This document shows, piece after piece, positions 13,597 to 64,000 of a DNA stretch of 64,000 nucleotides. The notes under the pieces were generated by a model that saw only the letters and a list, made by a program, of their open reading frames with translations, made no database searches and had not been told where the DNA came from. Source of the DNA: Halobacterium noricense (GTDB lineage: Archaea > Halobacteriota > Halobacteria > Halobacteriales > Halobacteriaceae); contig NZ_CP089468.1 of the NCBI RefSeq assembly GCF_021233435.1, positions 2,652,597 to 2,716,596 on the forward strand, read 5' to 3'. Every line of letters starts with the position of its first letter. The stretch's first letter is position 1. Position numbers and translations under genes: made by a program.

Positions 13597-13754
13597 TACC
13601 GAGTGTCGGGGACGCCGCCGGCTTAGGTGTTGTCCTTACCCGTGGACGGCGGCCGCTACGCGGAACTACGTACGGTTGCAGCGGAGAAGACACGCCGTCC
13701 TCGGTGGACGGCGACTCGCAAAAATTCGGGGTCGGGTGCGACTCGTGTCGCGGC

Positions 13755-14144: not shown

Positions 14145-14259
14145 CGTTCGAAGCGTTCGCAGTCCGCCGGCATAGTAGTTTTCGTTCTCGTCGAACGACG
14201 GGAATGGGCGCAACACCCCACGAACGTTCGATTTTCGGGAATCCGCCAGTGACGGGACG

Positions 14260-14267
14260 CTTTTAGG
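14260..14267 (+). promoter_or_regulatory. hisA TATA box
   Basis: CTTTTAGG lies 23 nt before the hisA ATG, the spacing that gives a leaderless or nearly leaderless transcript in haloarchaea. Confidence 0.55.
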
Positions 14268-14289
14268 GGAGCCACCCGGACACGACGGT

Positions 14290-15012: not shown

Positions 15013-15070
15013 TGGCGGATTCCGGACCACCACACGCTGTAGCAGACTACCCAACCGGTAGCGGGTGGAC

Positions 15071-15175
15071 TGAAAGGGGCCGACCGCTGGCAGTCACTCG
15101 CGACGCAAGGACCGCAGGCCGGAGGCCGAGGACCGCAACGAGCGAGCGGCCGCCAGCGGGGGGGGCTTTCGGGGA
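15071..15175. repeat. imperfect inverted-repeat element between hisA and hisB
   Basis: The left end is TGAAAGGGGC followed by CCGCTGGC (15084-15091); the right end is GCCAGCGG (15152-15159) followed by a G-run and CTTTC. The 8-bp pair is perfect and the outer GAAAG/CTTTC pair matches. Its plan resembles the elements at 11870-12196 and 39414-39523. Confidence 0.6.
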
Positions 15176-16919: not shown

Positions 16920-17006
16920 GCACGGGAGGACGAGGCGGGGCGGCAAAAGTCCTGCCGAGCGCCGCGCACCCACACCGTTTTGCCGGCCCGCCGCCTGCGT
17001 CGTCGT

Positions 17007-17039
17007 ATGTTCGAGGATATCTGCAGATGGACTGAATAA
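17007..17039 (+). pseudogene. stranded 5' end of the ACT-domain gene (attL side)
   Basis: ATG TTC GAG GAT ATC (17007-17021) encodes MFEDI and then runs into element DNA, giving the dead peptide MFEDICRWTE. Joined to the codons starting at 20499 it would rebuild MFEDIMQKFAGSP. From memory, haloarchaeal homologues of the ACT gene start with a very similar MF(D/E)(E/D)IM(E/Q)KF. It therefore appears to be the original start, separated by the 3.5-kb insertion. Confidence 0.8.
17022..17036. other. attL element arm
   Basis: TGCA followed by GATGGACTGAA. Its 11-bp arm is the exact reverse complement of 20488-20498. It directly follows the MFEDI codons of the interrupted gene. Confidence 0.7.
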
Positions 17040-17086
17040 GCCTGTGGGAATCAAGATTGAAGTAACTCGGCTTAGACAGGGAGTGT

Positions 17087-18442: not shown

Positions 18443-18446
18443 CTGG

Positions 18447-18611
18447 CTACGCCGACGCCTCCTGCGTTTCGGTTGTCGAGGGACGGGGCCTCTCCGCATC
18501 GGCGTTCAGTAACTTCTTTGCTATCCATCCAGCGGGGTTGTCACGCTCTACGAGTAGTACGAGGTCCTCACGGTCGATGTCGTAGCTTTCGCCGTTGATG
18601 TTGATGGTCAT
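18447..18611 (-). CDS. 54-residue small protein of the integrative element
   Basis: A short gene convergent with the integrase, 4 bp from its stop. It reads MTININGESYDIDREDLVLL, then a helix and a polar tail ending TETQEASA. The regular beta-strand pattern at the start and lack of stops suggest it is real. Position beside an integrase would fit an excision or regulatory factor, but there is no sequence support for that. Confidence 0.5.
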   Translation of the reverse strand: MTININGESYDIDREDLVLLVERDNPAGWIAKKLLNADAERPRPSTTETQEASA

Positions 18612-20051
18612 CTGTTGTCGGTCGTCACGGGTGTGATGCCGTGATCCCGAAATGTGCGAGTCCTCGACGTCTCGTAGTGCGACAGTCTGTTGTTCGTGTT
18701 ACTGGCGGATAAATCCTGTCGGCTGTGAACGCACGCGTGCAGAACACACAATTATTGTAGTGAAATAGTATGAAATATATTAATTAGGCTCCGTTGAGCC
18801 CTACTTAAAAGACGGATTCAACCCTAGTACTAGTACAGCCATCCGTTCGGGCGCGCACGCGAGAACCGCTGGGTGATTCAAGGGTATCACCCGCCAATAA
18901 TGATACGCGCACCAAGACAGCGATAAGGTGCGCTGGTCAGAAATGAAGACAGACACAGCAGCACTAATAGCAGCAGCTAAAGCGTTAGGTTTGCTAAACA
19001 CCCTGATTCGAGTATATTCGAGTAGAGGAGATCAAGAAAGCTGACTCATAATTCCATTCTTGGTGCTTATCCAACCACAACCATCCGTGAACTAGATTTG
19101 CATCACAGAGCCCATATATCTGTTACAGCCGTCTTACTGAGCCTACACGATGGTTCTACCCTATGGAAATAATATAATCCTCTAAGACCCCATTTGAGGG
19201 GCAGAAAGAGTGTGATGAGTAGAGGCATTCATCCTAAACAGGGAGGCAGGATCAATTAACGTGGAACGGGGAAGGCCGCAGGGAGTATTTCCCGCCGCTC
19301 TTGCGGCGTAACGCGTTGCGCGCGGCCCGGTGGATACTCAAAAATTGGGGTATACTGCGGTGGTTAATGTGCTATTGTATACTTGTTAGTCACTGTGCTG
19401 TTAATACCAACCCAGTCATTTTTCGCGAGCGGGCCTACGTGCGTGCGTATACGCTGATAATATGACGAACCTATAATGATTGTTCATTATAGTATATCGG
19501 AGGTGGGTGGTGATACGTTGGGGGTACTCGATGGCGGGTTGCCATCCTTCCTGTCCTCACTTCGAGGACGTGGTTAGATCATGCCGCCGTGACTGGATTC
19601 GGGGCTTTCGCACGCGCCCGTGCATACGCATAGCAAGGTCGCCCCTGAGAAGTTCCTCCTATGATCGGTGTTGGTGCTCGTAAGTGACCCGTGTCGGTGT
19701 TATAACTCGGCGTGAGCTGGTGTTGTGACGCCTATACTTCTCAATTATTATTGGGTATAATTTTCGTGTTGGTGTTACTCGTACGCATATGCACTACACA
19801 CTCGGCTTGCAAGAAAGTAGACTACTTCCTGTGTGGTTTGATGGTTGCCACCCGCTCGATGGCGTTACAGTTGTAATTCTATTCCGTTTATTGTGGTTTA
19901 ATTTCCTGATATTTTTCGTGTATTTCTCTATTGGCTGATGCCCTCCCCCGTGTTCTGGAATGTTCTCTCTGTCTCTAATTGTGTGTATGGGGGGTGTAGT
20001 GGGGTTTTACGGGAATATTAGGTTTTTGTTCATCGAGGAGACGGGATTGAG
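18612..20051. other. AT-rich non-coding interior of the integrative element
   Basis: About 1.4 kb without a convincing gene. Visible structures are a 10-bp palindrome GTACTAGTAC at 18827-18836 overlapping CTAGTACTAG at 18824-18833, just after a TATA-like CTTAAAAG; a 7-bp stem GGGTGAT/ATCACCC at 18871-18892; CCCC/GGGG at 19188-19201; and a CGCCGC/GCGGCG stem with TCTT loop at 19293-19308. A 33-residue ORF (18943-19044, MKTDTAALIAAAKALG...) follows a weak AAGGTG. This could hold an origin, small RNAs or decayed genes. Confidence 0.5.
18943..19044 (+). CDS. possible 33-residue microprotein
   Basis: A short ORF, MKTDTAALIAAAKALGLL then NTLIRVYSS, forming an amphipathic helix. AAGGTG lies about 13 nt before the ATG. 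Nothing else supports it. Confidence 0.25.
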   Translation: MKTDTAALIAAAKALGLLNTLIRVYSSRGDQES

Positions 20052-20195
20052 TTAGAGTAGGAACAGCCAGAGGCAGGCGAGGAGAAAGGTAGCGACGGAT
20101 GCTGCGTAGCATTCGCCAGTGTGCTTTGAGCTGACGCCTGCTGCAAGCATGAATAGTATGCTAACTACGAGGAATGCGAAGAATACATCGAGCAT
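20052..20195 (-). CDS. small two-TM membrane protein of the element
   Basis: A 47-residue ORF from ATG 20195: hydrophobic helix at 1-19 (MLDVFFAFLVVSILFMLAAG), a short polar loop SSKHTGECY and a second helix AASVATFLLACLWLFLL. The clean two-helix pattern suggests a real product. No ribosome-binding site is seen; a leaderless transcript is possible. Unknown function. Confidence 0.4.
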   Translation of the reverse strand: MLDVFFAFLVVSILFMLAAGVSSKHTGECYAASVATFLLACLWLFLL

Positions 20196-20310
20196 GGCGC
20201 TCGTGTTAGTGTAGTAACTTGTATCGGTGGTCCTTGAGTCTGGTGGGTAGATTGTCGGTCGGGTACTGTATTCCGTTATCACTCATTTATCTGGTTTTCT
20301 GGTACGACGA

Positions 20311-20440
20311 TTTGCTTATAAAGTATATACTATGTGGTACCAGATTCGCCGTTTATCCTTTCTTTCGTGTTGAGATAGTGTTTAGTGAAGGTAGTTTGTG
20401 GTGAAATGACTGCATCCCGAGATTCAATAGCGTAGGAGGA
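20311..20440 (+). promoter_or_regulatory. element-borne promoter and RBS for the ACT gene
   Basis: AT-rich CTTATAAAGTATATAC at 20315-20330 offers several TATA boxes. GGAGGA at 20435-20440 is a ribosome-binding site, 16 nt before ATG 20457. Since the native start was cut off, these element sequences probably drive the downstream gene. Confidence 0.4.
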
Positions 20441-20456
20441 TTGGTATCGAGTATGA

Positions 20457-20987
20457 ATGGAGGTGAGTCTTGATTTGCCTGATGGGTTTCAGTCCATCAT
20501 GCAGAAGTTCGCGGGGAGCCCCGGCCAGCAGGCCGTCATCCGGCTGCTGCTCGAACGGGGGTTCTCCGTGAACGACGACGGCCGCGTGGTCTCCGGCGAC
20601 ATCGAGATTCCGTACACGCAGGTCGCCGAGGCTGCGGGCGTCGACCGCCGGGTCGTGGACTCGACGACAGAGGCCATCCTCGAGGACGACGAACTCCGCC
20701 GCATCTTCCAGAACATCAGCCAGATTCCGAGCCTGATGGACCTCGCGCCCGTCCTCGACTTGACCGTCGTCACCGTCGAGGTGCAGGACGCCGACGAGCC
20801 CGGCATCGTCGCCGAAGTGACGGGGCTGCTCGCCGAGCACGGCATCAGCATCCGGCAGACGATTAGCGAGGACCCCGAATTCACGGACGAGCCGCGGCTC
20901 TACCTCGTCACGGACGAGGACCTGCCCGGTGACGTGTTGACTGAACTGATGAACAAGCCGTTCGTGCGGTCGGTCGAGCTCTCCTAG
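20457..20987 (+). CDS. ACT-domain amino-acid-binding regulator with element-derived N-terminus
   Basis: A 176-residue protein: an N-terminal winged-helix-like domain (PGQQAVIRLLLERGFSV to DRRVVDSTTEAIL, about 22-80) and a C-terminal ACT domain (VVTVEVQDADEPGIVAEVTGLLAEHGISIRQ, about 102-132). ACT domains bind amino acids, so it is probably a metabolite-responsive regulator. The first 14 codons (20457-20498) have element-like composition and replace the native MFEDI stranded at 17007. Host-type sequence resumes at ATG 20499, which could be an alternative start. Its stop shares CTAG with the convergent gene. Confidence 0.85.
   Translation: MEVSLDLPDGFQSIMQKFAGSPGQQAVIRLLLERGFSVNDDGRVVSGDIEIPYTQVAEAAGVDRRVVDSTTEAILEDDELRRIFQNISQIPSLMDLAPVLDLTVVTVEVQDADEPGIVAEVTGLLAEHGISIRQTISEDPEFTDEPRLYLVTDEDLPGDVLTELMNKPFVRSVELS
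20488..20498. other. attR element arm
   Basis: TTCAGTCCATC, the reverse complement of the arm at 17026-17036, followed by ATGCAG of the target gene. TGCAGA is present at both junctions. Confidence 0.7.
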
Positions 20988-21274
20988 CGGTCGCCGACGA
21001 CGCTCGCGATGACGAAGAGGTAGCCGATGGTCGTGAGCGCGTAGTTGACCGTCAGGAGGACGATGGCGTTCCGGAAGTCCTGAGAGAACGCCGACACCGT
21101 GGTGGCGATTGCGGCCGCGACGATGATGGAGAAACCAAGCGAGAGCAACAGCATCTCCCGGCGCTCGGTCTGGAGGTAGGCGTTGGCGGCTATCGCCACC
21201 ATCGCCAGTCCCGAGAGGGAGAGCGCGATGCTGAAGAGCACGTAAATGAGTTCCAGCGTCGTCAGCGCGGCCAT
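20984..21274 (-). CDS. DUF7521-type small membrane protein
   Basis: A 96-residue protein with three hydrophobic helices (about 7-30, 42-63, 72-93) and a short charged QTERRE loop. It resembles a family of haloarchaeal membrane proteins often found beside winged-helix regulators, here the ACT regulator convergent with it. Function unknown. Confidence 0.65.
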   Translation of the reverse strand: MAALTTLELIYVLFSIALSLSGLAMVAIAANAYLQTERREMLLLSLGFSIIVAAAIATTVSAFSQDFRNAIVLLTVNYALTTIGYLFVIASVVGDR

Positions 21275-51322: not shown

Positions 51323-51799
51323 TCACGACGCCCCCTGTCCGGGGTTACAGTTGTTCGGGCGTGATTCGTTGACGTCGGCGGTTACGGTCGCATCGAATCC
51401 GTCACCGACAATTTCGACCGTTATCTCGGTTGCGTTGAAGTCGAGGTTGTACGTTTTTCGCGCTCCGGGACCGATATGGCTGCTCGGCTCTTCCTGTGCA
51501 TCTCCCGCTGCCTCGGTGATGCGTTCGACGGTTATGTCCCTCGAGTATCGATTCCTCACCGAGACGTACACCTCAGTGTTCCCAACACCCTGACCGCTGC
51601 TGGCGTTCGCACTACTCGACGCTCCGTTACTATTCTGGGGAGCACACGCAGTGACTCCGACGTACGCGTCCTCGCTGTCCACGACGTTCACGGAGACACC
51701 GCGCTCGGCGCTGACGCTCGTGAACCCGAGTGTCCCGGTAGCGAGCATGCTCACCGCAGCGAGCGCGAGCGCGATGCTGACGACTCGTGGAACGTTCAT
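51323..51799 (-). CDS. secreted TasA/DUF1102-like protein (A)
   Basis: A 158-residue exported protein. The signal MNVPRVVSIALALAAVSMLATG is followed by LGFTSVSAERGVSVNVV, the consensus seen in the three other copies of this cluster. The mature part is all-beta (VYVSVRNRYSRDITVERI, KTYNLDFNATEITVEIV) with two cysteines (C53 and C152 approx.). It is encoded directly after the DUF7344 regulator with a TGATG overlap, so both are co-expressed. By analogy with bacterial TasA, it may be a surface fibre subunit. Confidence 0.72.
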   Translation of the reverse strand: MNVPRVVSIALALAAVSMLATGTLGFTSVSAERGVSVNVVDSEDAYVGVTACAPQNSNGASSSANASSGQGVGNTEVYVSVRNRYSRDITVERITEAAGDAQEEPSSHIGPGARKTYNLDFNATEITVEIVGDGFDATVTADVNESRPNNCNPGQGAS

Positions 51800-52416
51800 C
51801 AGCCCCGAAGTTCCGGTGGTTCGTCGGTTGCTCCGATGCGTTGCCCCCGTGCATAGTACGTGTGCGCGACTGCAGAGACCGCGAACATCGCAGTGACGGC
51901 AATCCCCCACGCGACGTCCGGCAGCACCGCGAACGGCCACGCGCCAGTCCAGACCGCCGCCATCAGGGCCGCTGCCACCCCCGAGAGGCCGAGATAATAG
52001 ACGCTCCACGGAATCTCGTTGCCCTGCACGACGTCCATGTAGACCTCGATGTCGTCGAGGGAGTCCGTGGGCTCGACAGTCCCACGGTTCTTGTCGAAGT
52101 TGACGACGCCGACGTCGTCCATCTTCGGCAGGTGTGACTGCTGGAGCGCGGTGTAGACACGCTTGCGCTCCTCGTAGGACACCTGATCGACGTCGACGCC
52201 GTACTCCCATGCGGCGACCTGCTCGGCGACGTCTCCAATTTCGGCAGTGCTATCCGCTGCTTTCAGCGCGTGTGCAGCATACCGCCGCCGCCGGTTCGAG
52301 AGTACGTCGAACAGTTCGTCCTCCGTCGGCGGCTCAGTTGACACCTCGTCGCCCGGTTCCCCCTCCCCTGTATCGGCGGGCTTCCCCTGCCCCCGATGTT
52401 GTGACGCCGATGACAC
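51799..52416 (-). CDS. DUF7344 winged-helix regulator with two TM helices
   Basis: A 205-residue protein: N-terminal polar region, a winged-helix (ELFDVLSNRRRRYAAHALKAAD through KRVYTALQQSHLPKMDDVGVV, about 35-110), and C-terminal membrane helices (IPWSVYYLGLSGVAAALMAAV and WGIAVTAMFAVSAVAHTYYA). The family is a haloarchaeal class of putative membrane-attached transcription regulators. GTG 52416 is chosen since a TATA-like sequence lies about 25 nt upstream. It probably regulates the surface cluster; inference from position. Confidence 0.78.
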   Translation of the reverse strand: MSSASQHRGQGKPADTGEGEPGDEVSTEPPTEDELFDVLSNRRRRYAAHALKAADSTAEIGDVAEQVAAWEYGVDVDQVSYEERKRVYTALQQSHLPKMDDVGVVNFDKNRGTVEPTDSLDDIEVYMDVVQGNEIPWSVYYLGLSGVAAALMAAVWTGAWPFAVLPDVAWGIAVTAMFAVSAVAHTYYARGQRIGATDEPPELRG

Positions 52417-52797
52417 GACAAGCAATCCTTCTCTACTACGCGCCCATAAGTGTTGGCTATAATTAACGTATCAATATCTGACGATAACAACCGCGAAGAT
52501 GCTCGTTCCGCGGTTTCTAGGCGTTCACTCCCCAAATTTCAGATATTAATTCGAGAATAGTTCCGTGATGCGAACCGGTTTTCGGCCGCTCAGGTGTGCC
52601 TTGACGGTCACTCAGGCAGGGGTTGTCGGTGGACAGCAGCTTCTCAGGTGCGGTCAGACGGTCGGCCGACGAACGACAGACCGAGGCTGAACTCGCTCAA
52701 TCGTGTCAATACTACCTACCATAGGGGTGATGGGGGAAGTGAGCGCTCTGGTGGACCGCGGTGGTCCATGGGAGTGCACAGCGAGGTAACTCCAACA
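52417..52797. promoter_or_regulatory. intergenic control region of the surface cluster
   Basis: 381 bp without a gene, between divergent operons. It contains an inverted 9-bp repeat AATATCTGA (52473-52481) / TCAGATATT (52540-52548), and a hairpin TGGACC/GGTCCA around GCGGT (52752-52768), 30 bp before the start of the next gene. CTATAATTAA near 52458 is the probable regulator promoter. The repeats may be operator sites. Confidence 0.5.
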
Positions 52798-53514
52798 ATG
52801 CAACGTCGCAAATTCATCGCCGGACTCGGATCGCTCGCTGCCGCCGGGGCAGCTGGAATCGGTACGGGCGCGTTCACGACTGTGCAGGCGAACCGGAGCG
52901 TTAGTGTCTCCGTAGCTGACGACACTGATGCGCTGCTGGCTCTGACTCCGGATCCGGACGATGATAATACGAATGAGTCGGAGAATGCGGACTACCTGAG
53001 CTGGAACAACGGTCAAGTCAGCATCAATATTGATGATGCTGCTGGCACCACCGGGTCAGGTGTCAACGCCAACGCGACGACGCAGATTAATGACCTGTTC
53101 AAGGTCGTGAACCAAGGAACCCAAGCTGCTGTCGTCTACGTGGATCCAGACAGTATCAGTGACAGCAATTATACTTTCGATAATTCGGGTACTGGTATTA
53201 TGATCGATCCGCAGGCTTCCAACCGGCCGAACGGGGAATACACCAACACCAGTGGGTTGGCCGCAGGTGTTGAGGATGATCAGATTTCCCTGACAGGTGG
53301 AGACTCCGGCCCCACTTGGGATGGGGTAGGGAGCAACAATAATGACTCACTCGAAGAATACGTCCTCGGGCCGGGCGAATCGTTCGATTTCGGTCTGTAC
53401 GTCAAGACAGACGATTCAGTCGACGATACTTCGAGTATTAGCGAGACAATCGAGATCGTCGCTGATGCAACCCGTGTTCCGAGCAGCTACACGGGAGACG
53501 GAAGCAGTAGTTAA
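52798..53514 (+). CDS. secreted TasA/DUF1102-like protein (B), Tat signal
   Basis: A 238-residue protein. MQRRKFIAGLGSLAAAGAAG is a twin-arginine-type signal, followed by the conserved IGTGAFTTVQANRSVSVSVADD and DALLAL. Later blocks DLFKVVNQGTQ, LGPGESFDFGLYV and SISETIEIVAD recur in the next two genes, marking one shared domain. Rich in Asn, Asp, Ser and Thr, it has many potential N-glycosylation sites. Its GC content is visibly lower than that of neighbours, suggesting recent acquisition or rapid change. Confidence 0.82.
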   Translation: MQRRKFIAGLGSLAAAGAAGIGTGAFTTVQANRSVSVSVADDTDALLALTPDPDDDNTNESENADYLSWNNGQVSINIDDAAGTTGSGVNANATTQINDLFKVVNQGTQAAVVYVDPDSISDSNYTFDNSGTGIMIDPQASNRPNGEYTNTSGLAAGVEDDQISLTGGDSGPTWDGVGSNNNDSLEEYVLGPGESFDFGLYVKTDDSVDDTSSISETIEIVADATRVPSSYTGDGSSS

Positions 53515-53528
53515 AGCCGGTAAAGATA

Positions 53529-54113
53529 ATGAAACGGCGCACCCTCGTGGCCGGCCTTGGTAGCCTCACGGCGAGTAGCGTACTCGCTGTGGGAGCGGGT
53601 GCGTTCACGAGCGTCAGCGCGACACGCCGTGTCACAGTCCAGACGAGCGGGGACAACGACGCTCTGCTCGGACTTAAACAGCTCGGCGACGGGACCAGGA
53701 CGGTTTACGGGAGAAGCGTCGAAGGTGGATCTCCGGAACAGGTCGCATTCAGCTTTCCTGGGACCGGAGAGCTCGCATCCGGCTCGGATCTGGGACTCGG
53801 GACCGATTCGGTGTACGAGTTCGATCGAGACGCTGGAGAGTCAGATGATTCCCATCCGACCGAGGGTCTACTCCGAATAATAAACCAAGGCACACAGCCG
53901 GTCATGGTGCACTCGGAACACAACACCGAATCCGCACTCGAAATCGAGCTGTACGACGTGACCGACGCCGACGAGACCGCACTCCGTGACAACCACCCAG
54001 TCCTCGACAGCGGCAGCTACGTCGACGTCGGATTTCGAATCCGAACCCACGGCGCCAGTCCCGGTGAGTTCGACGAGACGCTAACTATTGTCGCCGACCA
54101 TCCCGACGAATAA
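53529..54113 (+). CDS. secreted TasA/DUF1102-like protein (C), Tat signal
   Basis: A 194-residue relative of the preceding protein. Signal MKRRTLVAGLGSLTASSVLAVGA, then GAFTSVSATRRVTVQ, DALLGL, GLLRIINQGTQ and FDETLTIVADHPDE. Smaller than B because an internal loop is missing. It begins 14 bp after B's stop, so the two are co-transcribed. Confidence 0.82.
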   Translation: MKRRTLVAGLGSLTASSVLAVGAGAFTSVSATRRVTVQTSGDNDALLGLKQLGDGTRTVYGRSVEGGSPEQVAFSFPGTGELASGSDLGLGTDSVYEFDRDAGESDDSHPTEGLLRIINQGTQPVMVHSEHNTESALEIELYDVTDADETALRDNHPVLDSGSYVDVGFRIRTHGASPGEFDETLTIVADHPDE

Positions 54114-54172
54114 CCCACCCCGGCTGATCGGCGGTTCGACTCCGCCGGTGGGTTTCTGACGATGCGAGACAG

Positions 54173-55612
54173 ATGAAACGCACCCTCGCACTCGCTGCGG
54201 CGCTCGCGCTCGCGGGAACACTCGCGTTCCCGTCGGTAGCCGCGCCGCTGTTCTCCGGGCCGACCGACGCCCTCGATAACGACGTTGAGCTCGCGCCGAG
54301 CAGTGACTACGCGTACCTCGACGACGGCGAGCTCGTCGTCGACCTGTCGGCGGCGAACCCCGACGCGGAGGGCGTGAACGACGACGCCGTGACGAGCATC
54401 GATGACGTGTTTCGGGTGAGGTACAATGGCTCGCAGTACGCGCACGTATGGCTCACTCACGAGTCCGATGCGGTGACGTTCTACGCGAACGGCGAGCCCG
54501 TACAGTCCGAGGCAGCGAACGTGACGCTCGCACCGAACGAGACAGCCGCGGTTGGGATGCGTGTGGACACGACCGGTGAGACCGCGGACGGGCTCATCGA
54601 TGAAATTACAATTCACGCGCGGGCGGCCGAGCCCGAGGACGTCGCCGGCAGCGAGAGTGGAGACACAGATACAAACTCGGTCTCGTCCAGCGGGTCGACA
54701 GTACAGACGTGGGCGCCCGACGCGACTTCGCGGCGGTTCGTCGCGCTCGATGTGAGTGCGGGGGAGACGACGACCTTCAACGCATCCAGACTCGCCCTGG
54801 ACGGTACGGACGGCGAACTCACGCTCGACGAAGCCGACGTCGCGACCACGGGCGAGTCGCTGTCGCTGGACGTCGACGCGACCGGGACCGAGAACTCGCG
54901 CTCTCGAGTAGCCGAGCGAGGCGCGGAGGCACTCGGCGCGGTCAGCGTGGCGGACCGGCTGGACAGCGCGGGGCGCGCGACGTTGCGGTTCAGCGTCCCC
55001 GAGGGGTACTTCGAGGCGCGCGGTATCGCGCCCGAGCACCTCGCTGTCTACCGCGACGACGGCGGCACACTCTCGAAACTCTCCGTGACGATGACCGGCG
55101 AGCGCGGCGGTCGCGTGCGGTTCGAGACCGAGACACCTGGATTCTCGACGTTCGTGGTGGCCGCAGACCGTGCACGCCTCCGAGTCACCGACGCGACGCT
55201 CGAACGTGCGAGCGCTGCACCCGGAGAGGCCGTCGCGGTGACGGCGAACATCTCGAACGAGGGCAGCATCACGGGTGAGCGGACCGTCACGGTGTCCGTC
55301 GACGGGAGCGTCGTCGCGGAGCGTACGGTCGAGGTCGAAGCCAGCGAAACCGCGACCGTGACGGCGCAAGTCGCGCACGACGAGACCGGCGAGCACGCGG
55401 TCACCGTGGACGGCGTCGACGCCGGGACCCTCGTCGTGCAGGCCGACGATACGGGTAACGCGACCACAGAACAGTCCCCGGCCGAGAACGCAGCCGACGA
55501 GCCTGTGCGGGAGGCGGCCGGATTCGGGCTGACTGACTTGCTCGGACTGGGAGCGGTCCTCGCGATCGTCGCGGCGTCGCTCGTGCTCGCACGGAGGACA
55601 CCGTGGCGATGA
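54173..55612 (+). CDS. surface protein with DUF1102-like, PGF-pre-PGF and CARDB-type domains
   Basis: A 479-residue exported protein. Signal MKRTLALAAALALAGTLAFPSVAA; first domain (about 25-155) has DVFRVRYNGSQYAHVWLT and AAVGMRVDTTG blocks matching proteins B and C; the middle (about 175-325) resembles a PGF-pre-PGF domain (TTTFNASRLALDG, TPGFSTFVVA); then a CARDB-like beta-sandwich (about 330-425, VTANISNEGSITGERTVTV). A C-terminal helix and RRTPWR anchor it in the membrane. It may anchor or cap fibres formed by B and C. Confidence 0.8.
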   Translation: MKRTLALAAALALAGTLAFPSVAAPLFSGPTDALDNDVELAPSSDYAYLDDGELVVDLSAANPDAEGVNDDAVTSIDDVFRVRYNGSQYAHVWLTHESDAVTFYANGEPVQSEAANVTLAPNETAAVGMRVDTTGETADGLIDEITIHARAAEPEDVAGSESGDTDTNSVSSSGSTVQTWAPDATSRRFVALDVSAGETTTFNASRLALDGTDGELTLDEADVATTGESLSLDVDATGTENSRSRVAERGAEALGAVSVADRLDSAGRATLRFSVPEGYFEARGIAPEHLAVYRDDGGTLSKLSVTMTGERGGRVRFETETPGFSTFVVAADRARLRVTDATLERASAAPGEAVAVTANISNEGSITGERTVTVSVDGSVVAERTVEVEASETATVTAQVAHDETGEHAVTVDGVDAGTLVVQADDTGNATTEQSPAENAADEPVREAAGFGLTDLLGLGAVLAIVAASLVLARRTPWR

Positions 55613-55670
55613 CGGGAACGACACCGGTGCGGCGGGTAGTCTTTTGCCAACCACGCGAGCAGTTCGACGT

Positions 55671-56549
55671 ATGAATCGGGGATACGGCCCGCAGTCGTTC
55701 CGGGCGGCTCTCCGTGACGCCGTCAGGCTACGGGACTGTCTCGCGCTGTCGGTCGTCCCCGCCGTCGTCCTCGGCGTCTTCACGCTCCCCGAAGCGACTC
55801 GCGAGTCGCTGGCGTTCGCGTACCGCGACCCGACGCTGGTGACAGCATACGCGGCCCACTTCGTCCACTTCGAGGTGGAACATCTTGTGGCGAACCTGCT
55901 CGGGTATGCGCTGCTCGCGGGTTTCGGGTACGTGCTCGCGGTGCTGGCGGACTGCCGGCGACTGTTTGGCGTCGCCGCCGTGACGTACGTGCTGGCGTTC
56001 CCCGCCGTGTTATCTGGACTGAACCTCGCGGTGCCGCGGAACGCAATCGGATACGGGCTTTCGGGCGTGAACATGGCGTTCGCGGGACTACTTGGCGTGG
56101 TACTCGTGGCGTACGTCGGCCGGCAACTCGACGCGAGGGTTCGCGTCCGGTACGCACCCGGCGTGTTCTTCGTGGCCGTTACCGTCGTCTCGCTAGTCGC
56201 ACTTCCGGCCAGGCGTGCGTCGGTCGCGCTCGCAGCGCTGAGCGCAGTCGTCGCTGCCGGGTACGCAATCGCCGTGTGGCGGGCGTGGAGTGCGTCACCT
56301 GGGCCAGTCTCGCAGGAGTGCAGCACTCGACCCGGATGGTTCGACGTTGGCGTGCTCGGTGCCGTGGCGTTCCTCGGCTACCCGTTCGTCGGATTCCCAG
56401 CGCCAACACCCACCGACGGCAGCGTGGTGAACGTCTACGTGCACTTGCTCGGGTTCTGCCTCGGATTCATCGTCCCGTACGTCGCGCTCGCGGCGGGCGC
56501 GTTCGACGCGGGCGGAGAAGCAGTGGAACGAACGTCCGAGGGTTTTTGA
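55671..56549 (+). CDS. rhomboid-like intramembrane protease homologue
   Basis: A 292-residue membrane protein with seven or eight hydrophobic segments. Rhomboid features seen: HFVHFEVEHLVANLLGY with the H-x3-N pattern (His71, Asn75), GYGLSGVN with the GxSG serine (Ser131) and a later His258 in YVHLLGFCLGF. These match the Ser-His dyad of rhomboids, though overall identity appears low. It lies between the surface-protein genes and the signal peptidase gene. Confidence 0.72.
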   Translation: MNRGYGPQSFRAALRDAVRLRDCLALSVVPAVVLGVFTLPEATRESLAFAYRDPTLVTAYAAHFVHFEVEHLVANLLGYALLAGFGYVLAVLADCRRLFGVAAVTYVLAFPAVLSGLNLAVPRNAIGYGLSGVNMAFAGLLGVVLVAYVGRQLDARVRVRYAPGVFFVAVTVVSLVALPARRASVALAALSAVVAAGYAIAVWRAWSASPGPVSQECSTRPGWFDVGVLGAVAFLGYPFVGFPAPTPTDGSVVNVYVHLLGFCLGFIVPYVALAAGAFDAGGEAVERTSEGF

Positions 56550-56574
56550 CGGATTGACACGTTCGACCGAGTGA

Positions 56575-57741
56575 ATGTCCGTCCGCCGCGCACTCACGCT
56601 CGGCGCTGAAGCCCTCGTCGTCCTCGTCGTCGTCGCTCTGCTCGTCGGCCAACTGCTCGGCACGCCCGTCCTGCTGGGGTACGTCGAAACTGGGAGCATG
56701 GAACCGACGATGGAGCCAGGGGACGGCTTCGTCGCGATACCGACGGCCATCGACAGCGACGTCGAGGAGGGTGACGTCATCGTCTTCCGCGCAGAGGAGC
56801 TCCAGGGCGGCGGCCTCACCACGCACCGCGTCGTCGGCGAGACCGACCGCGGGTACATCACCAGAGGTGACGCGAACCCGTTCACCGATCAGGACGGCGG
56901 CGAACCGCCCGTGAAGGACGCACAGGTCGTCGCGAAAGCGCTCCAGGTCGGCGGCACGGTGGTCGTCGTTCCGAACCTCGGCACGCTCGTCACCGGACTC
57001 CAGGGCGCGTTCGCCGACGTTCAGCGCCAACTCGCGACAGCGACCGGGACGCGCGCGCTGCTCGGCACGCAAGGCATCGCCTACCTCCTCCTAGGGCTGT
57101 CGGCGCTGCTGTACGTTTTCGACCTGTTCTTCGCAACGAGCGGTCCCGACCGGAGCCGCGACCGAGACCGTGACCGCGACCAGGGGATCTCGCCGGGACT
57201 CGTCGTCGCCGCCCTCGCTGCAGTGCTCGTAATCGCCGCGACCGCCGCGATGGTGGTGCCTGCGGGTACGCAGGAGTTCGGCATCGTGAGCGCGGAGTTC
57301 GCCTCCGAGAACCCCACAGTTATCGAGCAGGGTGAGTCCGCGAAGCTGCCGTACAGCGTTCCGAACGCCGGCCTCGTTCCGGTCGTCGCGTACGTCCAGC
57401 CGGCCAGCGAGGGCGTCTCGGTGACGCCCGAGCGCGTCCACGTCGACGGTCGCGGCGAAGCAGCCGTCGACGTCACGCTGTCCGCGCCCGAGGAGACGGG
57501 GTACTATCGGCGGTTCGTCACCGAGCACCGCTACCTCGCGGTGCTCCCGACTTCGATGATTGAGTCACTGCACGGCGTCCACCCGTGGCTCCCGATTCTC
57601 GTCATCGACGCCGCGCTCGCGGGCGGCATGGCGGTGCTCGGGCTGGTCGTGCTCGGTGGACGTCGCGTTCGCGTGCGGAAGCGGGAGTCGCGCCACGACC
57701 GGTCGCTGTGGCAGCGCGCGCTCCGGTATCTGACACGGTGA
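56575..57741 (+). CDS. SipW-type signal peptidase I with extra ectodomain
   Basis: A 388-residue membrane protease. The first half is a signal peptidase: helix at 13-30, Ser41 (ETGSMEPTM), His84 (LTTHRVVG) instead of Lys, and RGDANPFTDQD, as in SipW/ER-type enzymes. SipW processes TasA in Bacillus. The second half (about 205-388) is unusual: helix, beta-rich domain (FGIVSAEFASENPTVIEQGE, VAYVQPASEGVSVTPE) and another helix. Probably cleaves the signal peptides of the clustered proteins. Confidence 0.88.
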   Translation: MSVRRALTLGAEALVVLVVVALLVGQLLGTPVLLGYVETGSMEPTMEPGDGFVAIPTAIDSDVEEGDVIVFRAEELQGGGLTTHRVVGETDRGYITRGDANPFTDQDGGEPPVKDAQVVAKALQVGGTVVVVPNLGTLVTGLQGAFADVQRQLATATGTRALLGTQGIAYLLLGLSALLYVFDLFFATSGPDRSRDRDRDRDQGISPGLVVAALAAVLVIAATAAMVVPAGTQEFGIVSAEFASENPTVIEQGESAKLPYSVPNAGLVPVVAYVQPASEGVSVTPERVHVDGRGEAAVDVTLSAPEETGYYRRFVTEHRYLAVLPTSMIESLHGVHPWLPILVIDAALAGGMAVLGLVVLGGRRVRVRKRESRHDRSLWQRALRYLTR

Positions 57742-57798
57742 CGGGGATACGGTTGGTTTATCGACAAGTCTATACAACCGCGTTACACAGGGGGAGCC

Positions 57799-59010
57799 AT
57801 GGGGGAGGGGACACGTTGGCTCAGGGTTCGGGCAGTCGTATCGGCGTGGGTTCCCGTACTAGTCGCGGTACTGGCGGTGTTCGCACTCGCGGGCGGGTGG
57901 GCAGCGTATACGGCTCACGCCGCGCCCGGAACCACCACGGAGCAGTCCGAGCAGGCGCACTGGACCGTTACGGGTGAGTTCCAGCACTCCGCGGACGTCA
58001 CCCGCGAGAACCCGATTTTCGACGTGGGAACGACGCTCTCGAACCGCTCGACGTACTTCACGGGCGCGTCGCCCGTGCTCGACGGACGGTACGTCGCAAC
58101 GTACACCGGCATCGACGCCGCGGCCGCGTCTATCGACCTCGACGCCGCGCTCGTTATGCGGTCGGTTGGTGAGGACACCGTTTACTGGACCGACCGAACA
58201 TCGCTGGACGAGGCAAGCGTAGACGACGTACAGGCCGGTGAATCGACCAACATCGCCTTCGCGCTGAACGCCACTCGGATCGCGAACCGGCAGTCAGCGA
58301 TTCAGGAGTCGCTCGGACAGACACCCGGCGACATTGAGGCGTTCGTCGCAGTCCGCACGGCCGTCAACGGAACCGCAGACGGGCGGCCTGCCTCGCTGTC
58401 GCTCACGCATCGTCTCCCCATCTCGGTCGACGGCGACGCGTACACCGTCGGCCCCGCGGAAACCGGCAGCGAAACCGTGACAACGACCGAGACGGTGACC
58501 GTCACCAACGAGTACGGCTTGCTGTGGACGGTCGGCGGCCCGCTACTCCTCCTCGGTGGCGTCAGCGGGCTCGCGATACTCGGCGTCGGGCGACGCCGGG
58601 ACGCGTTCGCGCTGTCGGAGAATGAGCGCGACCTGCTCGCGTTCCGCGACGAGCGCGCGGAGTTCGACGAGTGGGTCGTGCGGGCCCGGCTTCCCGACTC
58701 CGTCCACGACCGACAGCGGGCAGAGGCGGCGTCGCTCGCGGACGTCGTGGACTTCGCTATCGACTCGGACACTGGCGTCGTCGAGGACACCGAAACCGGG
58801 ACGTTCTACGCTATCTCCGAGCAACTGCTCGTCGCGTACGAACCACCCGCACTGGCTCGCAGCGCCGACACGGATGGCGACACGAGAGCCGGATTACTCG
58901 ACGGTGTCTACGAACAACTCGATAGTATCGAAGACGAAACCGACAGCGAAACAGGCGAGAGCGAAGCGACCGACGGCGACCACGAGGAGACCCCGCGACC
59001 GCAGGACTAA
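57799..59010 (+). CDS. DUF5305-type membrane protein
   Basis: A 403-residue protein: N-terminal TM helix (about 15-38), extracytoplasmic beta-rich domain (about 50-225, VTGEFQHSADVTRENPIFDVGTTLSNRS), second TM helix (about 235-257) and a cytoplasmic acidic domain. This matches the DUF5305 family, often found with signal peptidases in haloarchaea. It begins 57 bp after the signal peptidase gene and may be an assembly partner for the surface system. Confidence 0.82.
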   Translation: MGEGTRWLRVRAVVSAWVPVLVAVLAVFALAGGWAAYTAHAAPGTTTEQSEQAHWTVTGEFQHSADVTRENPIFDVGTTLSNRSTYFTGASPVLDGRYVATYTGIDAAAASIDLDAALVMRSVGEDTVYWTDRTSLDEASVDDVQAGESTNIAFALNATRIANRQSAIQESLGQTPGDIEAFVAVRTAVNGTADGRPASLSLTHRLPISVDGDAYTVGPAETGSETVTTTETVTVTNEYGLLWTVGGPLLLLGGVSGLAILGVGRRRDAFALSENERDLLAFRDERAEFDEWVVRARLPDSVHDRQRAEAASLADVVDFAIDSDTGVVEDTETGTFYAISEQLLVAYEPPALARSADTDGDTRAGLLDGVYEQLDSIEDETDSETGESEATDGDHEETPRPQD

Positions 59011-59043: not shown

Positions 59044-62000
59044 TTACATGAAGTCCGCGATGCCTGACTGCTTGTTCTTGTCATTCTCGAAAATCGACTC
59101 GAGACTCGCCTCCAGGACTTCCAGGCGCTGTTTCGTGTACTCGCGGCAGTCGTACTCCTCGGCGACCGTGATTGCCGTGTCCATGTACTTGTTTACGGAG
59201 CCCTCGTGGACGGTCAGATTCACGCGCCCGCCACACTCCCGGCAGTCGCCCGTCAGCGGCATCCGGCGGTACTTCTCCCCGCAGTCCAGACACCGCGTCT
59301 CCTGGCGGCTGAACGCGCGCAGGTTCCCGATGAGGTCCGGGAGGAAGTGGTACTCGATGACGCGCTCGGCGACGTCCGTCTCGTCGACCGCCCGGAGTTT
59401 GCGCGCCAATTCGAGCTGGGCGTCCATCTTGTCCATCATCGACCCGAGCGTCTTGTACGCCGACAGGCTCGGCCCGAGGTGGATGTCCGACGTGTCGTGG
59501 GTGTGCTCGAAGCCCGCGTACTCCGTGTCGGTGCCGAGGCTCTCCTCCGCAATCTCCACGAGGTCCTCGACCTCACCAGGGTCGGCCATCTCGCGGGTCG
59601 CCTCGTAGAACTCCCGCGGGTACTGGCTGACGACGTCCATGTTGTGCGCCTCGTCGTCGATTTCAGTGGGGTCGATGCGCGAGGACATCACCAGCGGCGC
59701 GTCCATGGAATTGTGAGCGTACAGCCAGTTCGCGGTGAAAACAGGGTCGCCCCCGACCTGGAGGTCGTAGAGATACCCGTCGTAGTCGACGGAGCCAATA
59801 TCTTTGACGCGCAGATACGAAAGGTCCCCGTCCACAAGCGGGCGTAGTTCCTCAAGCGCGGCCTCGGCCTGCGACGGCAACTCCTGTTCGTCGAGCGTAT
59901 CGACGATCTCGGTGAGTTTCTCCAACGAGATGTTGTCGCGACGCTTCAGGTACTTCGGAATCGTCTGTTTCACGCCCGCAATATCCATCTCGCGGAGTTC
60001 CATCAGCGTAGACGGAATCGAAACGACGAGACTCTTGGGGAGATATGGATCGTCTCCGTCGAGAAGTCGGTGAAGCGGATTATCGTTCGCGCCGCCGGAG
60101 ACCGTTACGGTGTGGATGTCTTGTCTGTTGCCGTCACGGTTCGTTTTTGTTGAAACGTTCGCGACGAGTCCGAGACGGTGTAAGAGGAACATGATTCCGT
60201 CTTTCACGTCGTCGCTGGTCGTGTGGAAGCTAACTGTCGTCACGTTGTCGTTGGAGCTGTCGCTTCCGTCACCAGCAATAAAGCCTCGCAGGAAGTCGAG
60301 CACTACCGACCGCGGCGCGTGGAGGATACACTCTGGAACAACCTTCTCGCTCGAATCATACGAATCAGCGTTCTCGAAGCCGAGCGAGTAGAGTACCTCC
60401 CTGAACACGGCGGGGAACCGTAGTTCGTAGGCACGATTCGACCAGCGTCGTCCCGGTTCGGTCCCGAGTTTATCCGTAGCGATGTCGGCCGCACGGTCGA
60501 TGAGATCTTCGTCGGCGTTGTGGATGCAGGGGTTGACGCTTGAGGTAGTTCCCTCAGCGACGAACAAGCCTAGGAGCCAGGCGAAGTCCTCGTCAACCTC
60601 GATTGTTCGCGTAATGCCGAGTGAGGAGCCTTCAAGTCCGATCTCGATGTCAGTCGGTACGTCAAGTTCACTGTGGGCGAGAATCTGCTGGAACCGCTCA
60701 AATCCGATTTTCGACTTACTGAGTCGGTATGCGAGTCCCGCGTCGAACGCTTCATGTGTCTCGCTCCCTCGGTCGGTTGTCTCCCAGGCCGTCCGTAAGA
60801 GTTCCTCAACATCATCGTCGATGACAACGTACGGGTCATCGACACAGTCGGTGACATCCAGGGTCGTTTCCCGGGTGTCGACATCGAGGTCGCGTGGGGC
60901 AACAACCAAATCACCGGCTTCGAGGTCCGCACCGGCAACTTCCTCGATACCATCATCGTACCGGAAGAGGCTGTGGTGTTCCGTTATCTCCAGCGACCGA
61001 CCGAACTGCGTCTCCACGCGAACGAGTTGCTCGTCGTCATCCGCCCGGTAGCGAATCGCTTTCTCGATTGGTTCCAGTGATGCCTCGTGGTTGTCGTCGA
61101 ACGCGTACGTCTGCCAACCCTCAGCGTAACAGGTCCGTTTGCGGAACTTCCCGTCCGTTTCAATCGGCGATTCAAGCTCACTCCAGAACTCCTCGAAGGT
61201 TAGGAACCGAACGTCGCCGTCCGGGTCGACAGCGACGAGCCGAGAATCCTCGGCGACACTCCCACCGCGCTGGTCCGGCAGGTACGACTTCGAGAAGTTG
61301 ATGAGGCCGTCCATCAGGAGCATCACGCAATCTTCGTCACCATCACACTGCTTTGCCGCAATACCGTTCGCGAACAGCGAATGCGTATCGGCGACCGTGA
61401 GACAGTACGTGTGTGCAGTATCTGACTGAACGTATTCTATCTCTGAGATGTCGTCGAGGACCGTCGAGCCGCCGTCCGTCGCCGCGGCCACTTCTGGCTC
61501 GGGATGCGAGTCTGCACGCGTGCTCAACAGTAGCGACTCGTCACCGTCGAGATCACATGCTTCGGCGGAATCAACGCCGTCGCCGGTCCAGTACTGGACT
61601 TCGTGGTCCGGCGTAACGGTAAGTTCACGACCAGATTCGGCCTCGATACGAACCATGTGGTCGGGTGCGGGATGCTTCGAGACGGCCTCAACCGGCTTCT
61701 GTACGACGTCACCGTCCTCAGTCACGGACGGCACAAACACGTCACCGTCGAGCTCCTGGACGAGCGTCCCGAAGTCGTCCTCATCCGCTGTTTCGGGGTC
61801 GAGACGATTCTCGACGAGTGTCTTGATTGGGTCGTGGTGCCACTCGCCGGCTTCGTCCTCGAACCACACCTTCGTCTCCGGGTGGAAGCAGTTCCGACGC
61901 TTCGCGGCGTGAAAGTACGGATGCGCGTAGCCAACCGACGCTGACGTGAAGCCGATAACTCTGCCGACGACGGCGGCAGAGGTGTGGGGCGCCATCCCGA

Positions 62001-64000
62001 AGACGAGTTCGCCGACGAGGTCGTCGCGTTCCTCCAATTCGTAGAAGGCGTCGAGGCCGTAGTACTGGGTGAGGAGGTCGTCGACGAAGTCCGCGGTCTG
62101 GAGCATGTGCTCGGCAGCCCCATCGGAGAGTACGATGTCCTGCACGCGGAGTTCGACCAGTTGGTCGTCGTGCTCGAGGGGGTCGCCGTGGATGTCCTCC
62201 TCGTAGCCGAGTTCGCGGAAGTGTTCGACGGTGACGTCGAGTTCGCTGGGTTTGACCGACGTGACGGGGAGGTCGGTCATATCGTAGCGGACGGTGCCGT
62301 CCTTGAACGCGGAGACGTCGTGTTTCGCGCGGAGAACGCCCTTCTCCATGGGTTCGGGGACTTTCTCCGCGGACATCAGTCCCTGGACGCCCTTGAGCTG
62401 GTCGAAGGCGTTCTCGCGCTCGCCGACCGCCTGAAGCGCGTTACGGTACTCTGCGCCGACGTCGACGGTCTGGACTTCGACGTTGTCGAGTTCGCGCTCG
62501 CAGCGCGGACACTCGACGCGGCCGGACTCGTCGGGGTCGGCGCTAATGTTGCAGTCCGGGCACTCGTAGTGGGGGTCGGTCCACTCGCCGCAGTCCTCGC
62601 AGCGCGGCTCGAACGTGTGGTCGCCACAGTCCGGGCACTCGCGGACGCCCAGTTGCACGTCGAGTTCGCCGGGCGTGTCGCTCATGTCGGGAGCGTGCCG
62701 GGCGGCCTGGCTGACGTCGCGCTGGCTGCCGCCGGCTTCGCCGATGGGGAAGAGGGTGTGGACCGCGGGGGAGAGGTCGCGGGATTCGGACTTCTCCGGG
62801 CGGCCCATACGGTTCCCGATGCGCGTGGGCGCGCGTTCGCGGACCTCGAACGGGGCGACTTCGTTGACGGCGGCGAGCGCGTTCGGCCACTCGCGGGCGT
62901 CCGCGGAGAGGTCGTCCCATTCCCGGGCCAAATCGTCGGTGAGGCCCAAGGAGCGCGCGAACGGCCGCCAGTCCGGAATCCGAATCTCGTCGTCGTCCTG
63001 CGTGTGCTCGACGAGCAGCGCTTCCAGCGGCTCGCGGACCGCGTCCTCGTTGGGGACGACGAGGTCGCCGTCCTCCTGCTCGGCGTCCGTGACGGCGTCG
63101 GCGAGTACCTCGAAGTCGGCGACCTCGACGTCGTGCCAGAGGTGCGTGTACTTCGGGTGGAGGGGCGCGTCGTAGTCGGTCGCCCACTCCAGCGCCTGGT
63201 CGGCGTCGGGGGCTTCGAGGTCCACGTACGGCGAATCTCGGAGTGCCTGAATGTCCGCACCCGCTGCCTCGAAGTCCTGAATCCACCACTCCGGGGCGTA
63301 GGAGGCGGGCGCGAGCTCGTGGTTGTTCTCGACGAACTCGCCGTAGTTCACGAGGTACTCGCCGACGTCCAAGATTTCGACGACGCCGTTCCGAACTTCG
63401 AGGGCTTCCTCGGGGTCGTCGATGCGGCGGACGTCGCCGTTCGCGAGCTTGACGGTCGGCCCCTCGATGGAGTCGACGGGCACGATGCCCGCCGCCTTCC
63501 CCGGGCGCTCGGTCTTGATTTGGGTGCCGGTCGCGAGGAAGTCGTCCACGAGGTGCATCGTCGCGGGGTGGATGCCCGCCGTCGCGAACCCGTGGTTGCG
63601 CGAGCGCCCGTAGCGCAGGCGGAAGCCCCCCTCGTTGGAGGGGTGGCCGAAGACCGGGCGGCCCGCGATGAGGTCGCGGAGGAACTTGTTCGACGGGTCG
63701 ACGCGGGGCGGGCCGTCGGGCTCCTCGCTGGCGTCGTCGGCGTCGGCGGCCTCCGCTTCGCTCGCGGCTTCGCCGCTCGCGTCCTCCGAGGCCTCCCCCT
63801 GGTCGGCCTCGCTCTCCCCGATGGTGCCGTCGATGAGATCCTGCAGCCACGGCCACTCGACCTCGTCCAGATTTCGGGTGTAGCGCTGAATCTTGGGGGC
63901 TTTCAGCGCGATCCCTTCTGCGAGCACGAGGCACATCCCGCCGCGCGCGGAGTTCGTCGCGATGCGTTCGAGGTCGCGGAAGCCGTCGACTTCCTCGTCG
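59044..64000 (-). CDS. polC: DNA polymerase D large subunit PolC (partial), with two inteins
   Basis: The 3' part of polC; its 5' end lies beyond the window, and the frame is open to 64000. PolC is the catalytic subunit of archaeal replicative polymerase D. Seen: the RRLRYGRSRNHG block, zinc ribbons (CPDCGDHTFEPRCEDCG, CPDCN, CPRC; later CLDCGEKYR), catalytic motif CDGDEDCVMLLMDGL, and C-terminal QSGIADFM, a PCNA-binding-type peptide. An acidic linker occurs near 63720-63820. Two inteins interrupt the catalytic region and must splice to give active enzyme. Confidence 0.96.
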   Translation of the reverse strand, partial: DEEVDGFRDLERIATNSARGGMCLVLAEGIALKAPKIQRYTRNLDEVEWPWLQDLIDGTIGESEADQGEASEDASGEAASEAEAADADDASEEPDGPPRVDPSNKFLRDLIAGRPVFGHPSNEGGFRLRYGRSRNHGFATAGIHPATMHLVDDFLATGTQIKTERPGKAAGIVPVDSIEGPTVKLANGDVRRIDDPEEALEVRNGVVEILDVGEYLVNYGEFVENNHELAPASYAPEWWIQDFEAAGADIQALRDSPYVDLEAPDADQALEWATDYDAPLHPKYTHLWHDVEVADFEVLADAVTDAEQEDGDLVVPNEDAVREPLEALLVEHTQDDDEIRIPDWRPFARSLGLTDDLAREWDDLSADAREWPNALAAVNEVAPFEVRERAPTRIGNRMGRPEKSESRDLSPAVHTLFPIGEAGGSQRDVSQAARHAPDMSDTPGELDVQLGVRECPDCGDHTFEPRCEDCGEWTDPHYECPDCNISADPDESGRVECPRCERELDNVEVQTVDVGAEYRNALQAVGERENAFDQLKGVQGLMSAEKVPEPMEKGVLRAKHDVSAFKDGTVRYDMTDLPVTSVKPSELDVTVEHFRELGYEEDIHGDPLEHDDQLVELRVQDIVLSDGAAEHMLQTADFVDDLLTQYYGLDAFYELEERDDLVGELVFGMAPHTSAAVVGRVIGFTSASVGYAHPYFHAAKRRNCFHPETKVWFEDEAGEWHHDPIKTLVENRLDPETADEDDFGTLVQELDGDVFVPSVTEDGDVVQKPVEAVSKHPAPDHMVRIEAESGRELTVTPDHEVQYWTGDGVDSAEACDLDGDESLLLSTRADSHPEPEVAAATDGGSTVLDDISEIEYVQSDTAHTYCLTVADTHSLFANGIAAKQCDGDEDCVMLLMDGLINFSKSYLPDQRGGSVAEDSRLVAVDPDGDVRFLTFEEFWSELESPIETDGKFRKRTCYAEGWQTYAFDDNHEASLEPIEKAIRYRADDDEQLVRVETQFGRSLEITEHHSLFRYDDGIEEVAGADLEAGDLVVAPRDLDVDTRETTLDVTDCVDDPYVVIDDDVEELLRTAWETTDRGSETHEAFDAGLAYRLSKSKIGFERFQQILAHSELDVPTDIEIGLEGSSLGITRTIEVDEDFAWLLGLFVAEGTTSSVNPCIHNADEDLIDRAADIATDKLGTEPGRRWSNRAYELRFPAVFREVLYSLGFENADSYDSSEKVVPECILHAPRSVVLDFLRGFIAGDGSDSSNDNVTTVSFHTTSDDVKDGIMFLLHRLGLVANVSTKTNRDGNRQDIHTVTVSGGANDNPLHRLLDGDDPYLPKSLVVSIPSTLMELREMDIAGVKQTIPKYLKRRDNISLEKLTEIVDTLDEQELPSQAEAALEELRPLVDGDLSYLRVKDIGSVDYDGYLYDLQVGGDPVFTANWLYAHNSMDAPLVMSSRIDPTEIDDEAHNMDVVSQYPREFYEATREMADPGEVEDLVEIAEESLGTDTEYAGFEHTHDTSDIHLGPSLSAYKTLGSMMDKMDAQLELARKLRAVDETDVAERVIEYHFLPDLIGNLRAFSRQETRCLDCGEKYRRMPLTGDCRECGGRVNLTVHEGSVNKYMDTAITVAEEYDCREYTKQRLEVLEASLESIFENDKNKQSGIADFM
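59710..61260 (-). mobile_element. PolC intein 2 (517 residues, with homing endonuclease)
   Basis: It begins with Ser (SVAEDSRLVAV) after LPDQRGG and ends LYAHN before SMDAPLV. Block B is GRSLEITEHHSLF, and LAGLIDADG-type helices are WLLGLFVAEGTTS and LDFLRGFIAGDGS. The standard His-Asn end with Ser+1 should splice normally. It sits only 29 extein residues after intein 1. Confidence 0.92.
61348..61890 (-). mobile_element. PolC intein 1 (181 residues, mini-intein)
   Basis: It begins with Cys (CFHPETKVW) after the extein KRRN and ends GIAAKQ before CDGDEDC. Splicing blocks A, B (RELTVTPDHEV) and F/G (TYCLTVADTHSLFANG) are present; no LAGLIDADG endonuclease fits in 181 residues. It has a C-terminal Gln rather than Asn, as in the PolII intein of Pyrococcus abyssi, and no penultimate His. 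Confidence 0.9.

Follow-up and report, generated by a model that had tools for sequence, protein, structure and literature searches.

Which surface structure does a compact gene cluster in a haloarchaeal genome of 3.3 Mb encode, and what would a rhomboid protease and a folded RNA be doing inside it? The cluster lies in the window, the whole stretch of 64,000 nucleotides from Halobacterium noricense that was analyzed, and its two divergent transcription units flank positions 52426-52797 (Table 1). The first-pass annotation described it as a TasA/SipW-like fibre system. We conclude with high confidence that it is a haloarchaeal Tat-fimbria ("tafi") locus, a divergent member of a known system, because its pilins are homologous to the pilin of PDB entry 9P0A, its gene families are shared with a locus that passes the Taf models, and its gene order recurs among 80 loci. 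Since the fibre system is already known, the window chiefly adds one divergent tafi locus to it. Two features look new, namely a rhomboid paired with the tail of the anchor protein, and a tRNA-like RNA between the pilin and anchor genes.

Table 1. Genes, transcription units and other features of the fibre cluster (coordinates are those of the window).
Feature	Coordinates	Strand	Basis
R–A unit	outward from 52426-52797	-	DUF7344 gene R, then A
B-C-D-E-F-G unit	outward from 52426-52797	+	gaps of 14 to 59 bases
A, short exported protein	51323..51799	-	donor-strand-like N-terminus GFTSVSAERGVSV, non-RR signal
R, DUF7344 protein with C-terminal membrane helices	51799..52425	-	Pfam DUF7344 4.9e-31
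B, tafi pilin with predicted Tat signal	52798..53514	+	9P0A 5e-14; TafE 1.2e-17, TafA 8.7e-8 (both below cut-off); model Z 9.1
C, second tafi pilin with predicted Tat signal, paralogue of B	53529..54113	+	TafE 2.1e-12, below cut-off
tRNA-like minihelix (t-element-like)	54113..54153	+	covariance model 60.2 bits; compensatory changes
D, TafF-like putative anchor	54173..55612	+	DUF1102 1.9e-10; TafF 9.3e-9, below cut-off
Conserved D tail (PVREAAGFGLTDLLGLGAVLAIVAASLVLARRTPWR and upstream linker)	55460..55609	+	tail alignment; single in own genome
E, divergent rhomboid	55671..56549	+	invariant H65, H70, N74, S130, H257
F, locus signal peptidase	56575..57741	+	sigpep_I_arch 1.9e-17, SipW 1.4e-8
G, DUF5305 membrane protein	57799..59010	+	Pfam 8.6e-48; homologues in 77/80 loci

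Homology and conservation support the assignment of B and C as tafi pilins, and of F, G and R as conserved partner genes. B and C, which are 34% identical across 129 residues (E 9e-10), are the only pilin-type genes in the whole genome. Both carry predicted Tat signals, beginning MQRRKF in B and MKRRTL in C, and in both the signal is followed by GAFT.V.A.R.V.V (GAFTTVQANRSVSV and GAFTSVSATRRVTV). An arginine pair is present in the n-region of 57 of 59 B homologues and all 33 C homologues; being near-universal, the Tat-type signal characterizes the family as a whole. At the start of the mature protein, A1, F2 and R9 are invariant among 78 aligned homologues, where A and F were partly required in homologue selection and R was not. 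A profile built from homologues of B and C matches the entry "Structure of Natrinema sp. J7-2 Tafi pilus" (PDB 9P0A; E 5.8e-21), with the alignment starting at 9P0A residues AFSSVEADR, and the single sequence of B also reaches this entry (Table 1). The 9P0A chain comprises 188 of 215 residues, which is consistent with loss of about 27 residues by a cut in TGA|FSS. The predicted monomer of B has a mean pLDDT of 72, with the first 8 residues of the mature protein under 50, and its best structural match is again 9P0A (142 residues, 3.7 A). The next matches are the Pyrobaculum bundling pilus 7UEG (Z 7.6) and the Sulfolobus thread 7PNB (Z 7.1), which have a similar subunit fold but differ in lineage and gene context. 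A plasmid search with B as query gave no match.

The relation to bacterial fibres is one of mechanism and fold type only. In the Bacillus TasA/TapA/SipW system, an N-terminal strand is freed by the signal peptidase, subunits are beta-sandwiches and a SipW-type peptidase is dedicated to the fibre (PMC9674648), and all of this resembles the window. However, the Bacillus proteins use Sec signals and another anchor and have no rhomboid, whereas signals in the window are of the Tat type. There is no close sequence match between the two, and models for camelysin (PF12389) and TasA found nothing among the window proteins. The earlier idea of a TasA-like fibre akin to bundling pili, with a candidate donor strand directly behind the cleavage site, holds in kind, through the matches to 9P0A, 7UEG and 7PNB, but not as sequence kinship to TasA or camelysin. 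The same annotation took the Tat-type signals on two of the exported proteins, now borne out by their homologues, as a novel twist on assembly. This twist is already known from the description of Tat-dependent fimbriae (Galeva et al., iScience 2025, 28:111793, as cited in PMC12687288).

NCBIfam holds models for TafA, TafC, TafE and TafF, and one reference locus (L106) encodes proteins above the cut-offs of all four. This locus contains DUF5305, TafF, TafE, TafA, DUF7344, TafC and signal peptidase genes, and the window contains the same families. The window proteins match the Taf models, but every score is under the curated equivalog cut-off, which indicates a homologous system whose members are not equivalogs of the reference proteins. 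The known tafi system and the window can be set side by side: the pilin family, RR signals, DUF7344, the signal peptidase, DUF5305 and TafF- and TafC-related proteins are common to both. In the window, however, both pilins are nearer TafE, the TafC-like protein is short and has no lectin-like part, the TafF-like protein has CARDB and a tail of its own, a rhomboid is adjacent, and an RNA follows the pilins. Among 80 loci retrieved by the signal peptidase alone as query, the arrangement of A-R pointing away from B/C-(D)-(E)-F-G is recurrent, with the A-R order found in most of them; besides G, homologues of R occur in 62 and of E in 20.

The SipW-type signal peptidase, the DUF5305 protein and the candidate DUF7344 regulator named in the first-pass annotation were all recovered by family models (Table 1). 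R is likely a regulator; its start codon is uncertain, and its homologues are also found within reference taf loci. F bears an extra C-terminal beta domain and a helix, and its nearest relative, at 88% identity, comes from Halobacterium sp. CBA1126. A homologue of F is present in the reference taf locus, and by position F would be of the TafD type. The start of A was placed at 51799, not 52210, so that its ATG overlaps the stop of R. A matches the TafC model at 8.8e-6 across residues 7-101, below the cut-off, and corresponds to the N-terminal part of TafC without its lectin-like C-terminal part, as the TafC of the reference locus reads. The GxFTxVxAxR motif, originally attributed to four proteins, occurs in three (A, B and C), while D has the same core without the segment. 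The NQGTQ and ET.x.IVAD blocks, once assigned to three proteins, are exact in B and C, loose in D (YNGSQ, DEITIHAR) and absent from A.

D consists of a pilin-like domain, further beta domains including CARDB, a C-terminal helix and a final RRTPWR. The predicted structure (mean pLDDT 87) shows several beta domains and the helix at the C-terminus. The pilin-like domain is defined by profile comparison: the N-terminal domain of D matches the pilin profile with an hhalign probability of 99.3 (E 1.9e-20). When D was used for structure searches, CARDB/FN3-like domains dominated the matches, and no TasA-like chain was listed among them. The profile match begins at residue 22 of B, so that the donor-strand region has no counterpart in D. 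Homology supports D as a pilin-related protein that lacks the donor strand and ends in a C-terminal membrane helix, which is what would be expected of a membrane-anchored terminal acceptor.

The C-terminal tail of D is itself conserved. In the D proteins of the best 30 E loci, its consensus is E-P-x-G-[FIL]-[GD]-...-G-...-R-R-x-P-[RW]. The tail has one match in its own genome (2e-19; next best 0.26), and being single-copy there, it argues against many substrates in this organism.

The first-pass annotation had overlooked both this tail and the RNA element, and it treated the rhomboid as a mere neighbour, although the rhomboid is the more interesting part. E is indeed rhomboid-like, as had been suggested, and by its residues it appears catalytically complete: the GxSG serine S130, the C-terminal histidine H257 and the HxxxN motif (H70/N74) are invariant in 16 homologues. 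Its genetic linkage to D is likewise supported. E is undetected by Pfam Rhomboid PF01694 in a search that finds two other rhomboids in the genome, and a PDB profile search with E returned no solved relative. The best-scoring model is that of rhombosortase, TIGR03902, at 3.7e-5 (22 to 29 bits, below its cut-off of 84).

E and the D tail also go together across genomes. In a search of 243 genomes, 62 have E at <= 1e-20 and 181 do not. The D tail is found in 32 of the 62 genomes with E and in none of the 181 others (Fisher p 5e-23), a count that ignores relatedness of the genomes and is partly circular because D adjoins E and the tail model was derived from D genes neighbouring E. At the tail threshold of E <= 1e-5, 33 of the 243 genomes had a match, all with E. 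The one left out, in genome G085, was rejected as spurious, being a 3011-aa frame antisense to E. The order D-E-F holds in 30 of the 30 best loci inspected, with E between the anchor and the signal peptidase. Two observations are less circular than the genome count: tails differ between loci with and without E, and extra clusters lacking E retain the tail. Tails above 20 bits, scored with a model trained on tails from E loci, occur in 12 of 16 D proteins with E in the locus versus 2 of 16 without E. Those of loci without E mostly have different tails or C-terminal helices, two such loci retain a tail remnant, and weaker tails occur in some loci where E is distant. Thus, E and the D tail are probably a dedicated rhomboid-substrate pair, a reading held with moderate confidence.

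Several other arrangements were observed. Genomes G013, G021, G053 and G199 contain second, partial tafi-like clusters (L211-L215) made of A, R, B/C and D without E, F and G; in these additional clusters the D tail is kept, and E lies elsewhere in the genome. In L140 and L141, from two genomes with full-scoring TafC, E sits at the taf locus edge next to DUF5305 and is not beside TafF. In L107, weak E fragments (13185-15072) 3′ of a TafF-like gene are possibly a decayed rhomboid gene.

The closest known parallel is bacterial. GlyGly-CTERM was paired with rhombosortase from adjacency in one-target genomes and from co-occurrence (PMC3237569), and in Vibrio, the new end produced by rhombosortase is conjugated to a glycerophosphoethanolamine moiety (PMC6219818). 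The likeness lies in a rhomboid combined with a C-terminal motif-helix-basic tag on an adjacent target, and judged by genome comparison, the pattern of E and the D tail would be that of rhombosortase and its tag (PMC3237569, PMC6219818). The differences are that E is archaeal, falls under the TIGR03902 cut-off and has the motif EPxG[FIL][GD] instead of GlyGly-CTERM beside it; processing by E is a reasoned expectation.

The second addition is the RNA element. It starts on the last base of the C stop codon and reads ACCCACC, a 10-nt spacer, GGCGG-TTCGACT-CCGCC and GGTGGGT, followed by T-rich bases. Among 22 aligned elements, 97% of pair cells in the 12 stacked pairs are standard, 4 of the 12 pairs are changed on both sides, and the loop is TTCGANT; the elements were picked by a conserved 3′ half and a CCCAC 5′ strand, a choice that favours pairing in the outer helix. 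None of 500 shuffles reached the percentage, pair count or score of the element, and slid controls pair at 29-58%. The folding energy of the single element (z -1.25) is not significant and was left unused as evidence. Rfam has no family for the minihelix. Nine tafi loci besides that of the window contain a copy that the covariance model detects at E <= 1e-8, and many tafi loci lack it. By pattern search of whole genomes, the element occurs in 73 of 243, against 0 of 243 for a reversed control pattern. In 30 of the loci so found, 33 of 37 instances adjoin genes with tafi- or SipW-type RR signals, a fraction that is approximate since the signal test is a loose regular expression. The tested neighbours include SipW-type (TIGR04088) and camelysin-domain proteins. 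A supposed placement 3′ of ABC-transporter genes was dropped once these neighbours were recognized as SipW-type or camelysin-domain proteins.

In Haloferax, the t-element ahead of 5S rRNA is cut by tRNase Z. When ten genomes were searched with the model, 4 of 30 loci had the element between 23S and 5S rRNA, and in the 3 checked it ends one base ahead of 5S rRNA; we take these to be t-elements, ending where tRNase Z cuts. Because the model was trained on fibre operons and yet recovers the pre-5S element, that of its own genome included, this serves as an independent control. In the remaining 26 loci, 24 elements adjoin genes with tafi- or SipW-type RR signals, again approximately because of the same loose test. 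The minihelix of acceptor stem and T-arm is common to both places, whereas the t-element precedes 5S and the window element sits between protein-coding genes of a fibre operon. The minihelix is probably an RNA processing element, which we hold with moderate confidence, cleavage being judged from this likeness. ARAGORN annotates a few instances as tRNA-Arg. In one locus (L234), two such calls (1433-1525 and 2245-2337) lie 812 bases apart, one on either side of a gene resembling tafi pilins; these may represent fuller tRNA-like elements and not working tRNAs.

Each of these readings has a rival. E may be a general quality-control or signalling protease that is in the operon by chance, with the D tail an ordinary anchor or a PGF-CTERM-like archaeosortase tag. 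The layout of the tail, a short motif, a helix and arginines, does resemble PGF-CTERM, D carries a PGF-pre-PGF-like domain, and where E is missing, the C-terminal helices of D homologues are different ones. However, the PGF-CTERM model (TIGR04126) matches 14 places in the genome and D is in none of them, the tail has invariant residues of its own, E adjoins D in all 30 best loci, and two other rhomboids exist in the genome besides E. We regard this rival as rather unlikely. That B and C use the export and processing genes of tafi yet stay surface monomers without polymerizing is very improbable: Taf models do match the window proteins below cut-off only, and the organism is known here from genes alone, but B and C are homologous to a pilin solved within a pilus, and the donor-strand segment is conserved in 78 homologues.

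The RNA element, for its part, may escape processing altogether and only terminate or attenuate transcription, or be a scar left by recombination between duplicated genes. It recurs between tandem related genes, T-rich bases follow it, and its folding energy is unremarkable by itself. Against this stand the TTCGANT loop, the 12 stacked pairs with compensatory changes, and the finding of the same element by the model one base before 5S rRNA, the presumed tRNase Z site. An unprocessed terminator or scar is a doubtful explanation in our judgment.

We return to a tafi fibre whose anchor and message are both processed, which as a whole is a quite likely explanation of the locus. B and C would be exported via Tat, and F would cleave immediately ahead of (A)F[TS]xVxAxR. 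The freed N-terminal strand would then fill the beta-sandwich of a neighbouring subunit. D, which can take a strand and has none to donate, would be the terminal acceptor and close the fibre on the membrane side. A, which has a strand and a different body, would be the start or tip of the fibre; since TafC has a lectin-like part, proteins of the A type may sit at the opposite end. In Bacillus, the first strand is proposed to come from TapA, which shares its donor-strand sequence with TasA (PMC9674648). E would cut the C-terminal tail of D, so that the fibre is released or passed to another anchor, as with rhombosortase and GlyGly-CTERM. tRNase Z would cut the element after C and thereby split the transcript into a pilin message and a D-G message, which would set the ratios of the subunits. 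That haloarchaea possess a rhombosortase-like sorting of their own, with an EPxG[FIL][GD]-helix-RR tag, and that a tRNA-like element also cuts fibre-operon messages is, taken jointly, a tentative proposal to which we give slightly less than an even chance.

If these extras hold, an archaeal rhomboid gains a candidate natural substrate in the D tail; a study of the Haloferax rhomboid still lists substrates as future work (PMC11985538). They would also show how cells that lack a peptidoglycan wall may anchor and release their fibres. The subunit ratios of a fibre operon would become directly testable via tRNase Z, and the range of t-elements would grow beyond rRNA to include a class of genes for surface proteins.

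Elsewhere in the window, the minus-strand gene at 59044-63936 encodes DP2, the large subunit of DNA polymerase II. It contains domains for intein splicing and of LAGLIDADG homing endonucleases, and its sequence suggests two inteins. The region at about 17000-21000 has a G+C content of 0.50-0.53 against about 0.68 nearby, which suggests an acquired segment.
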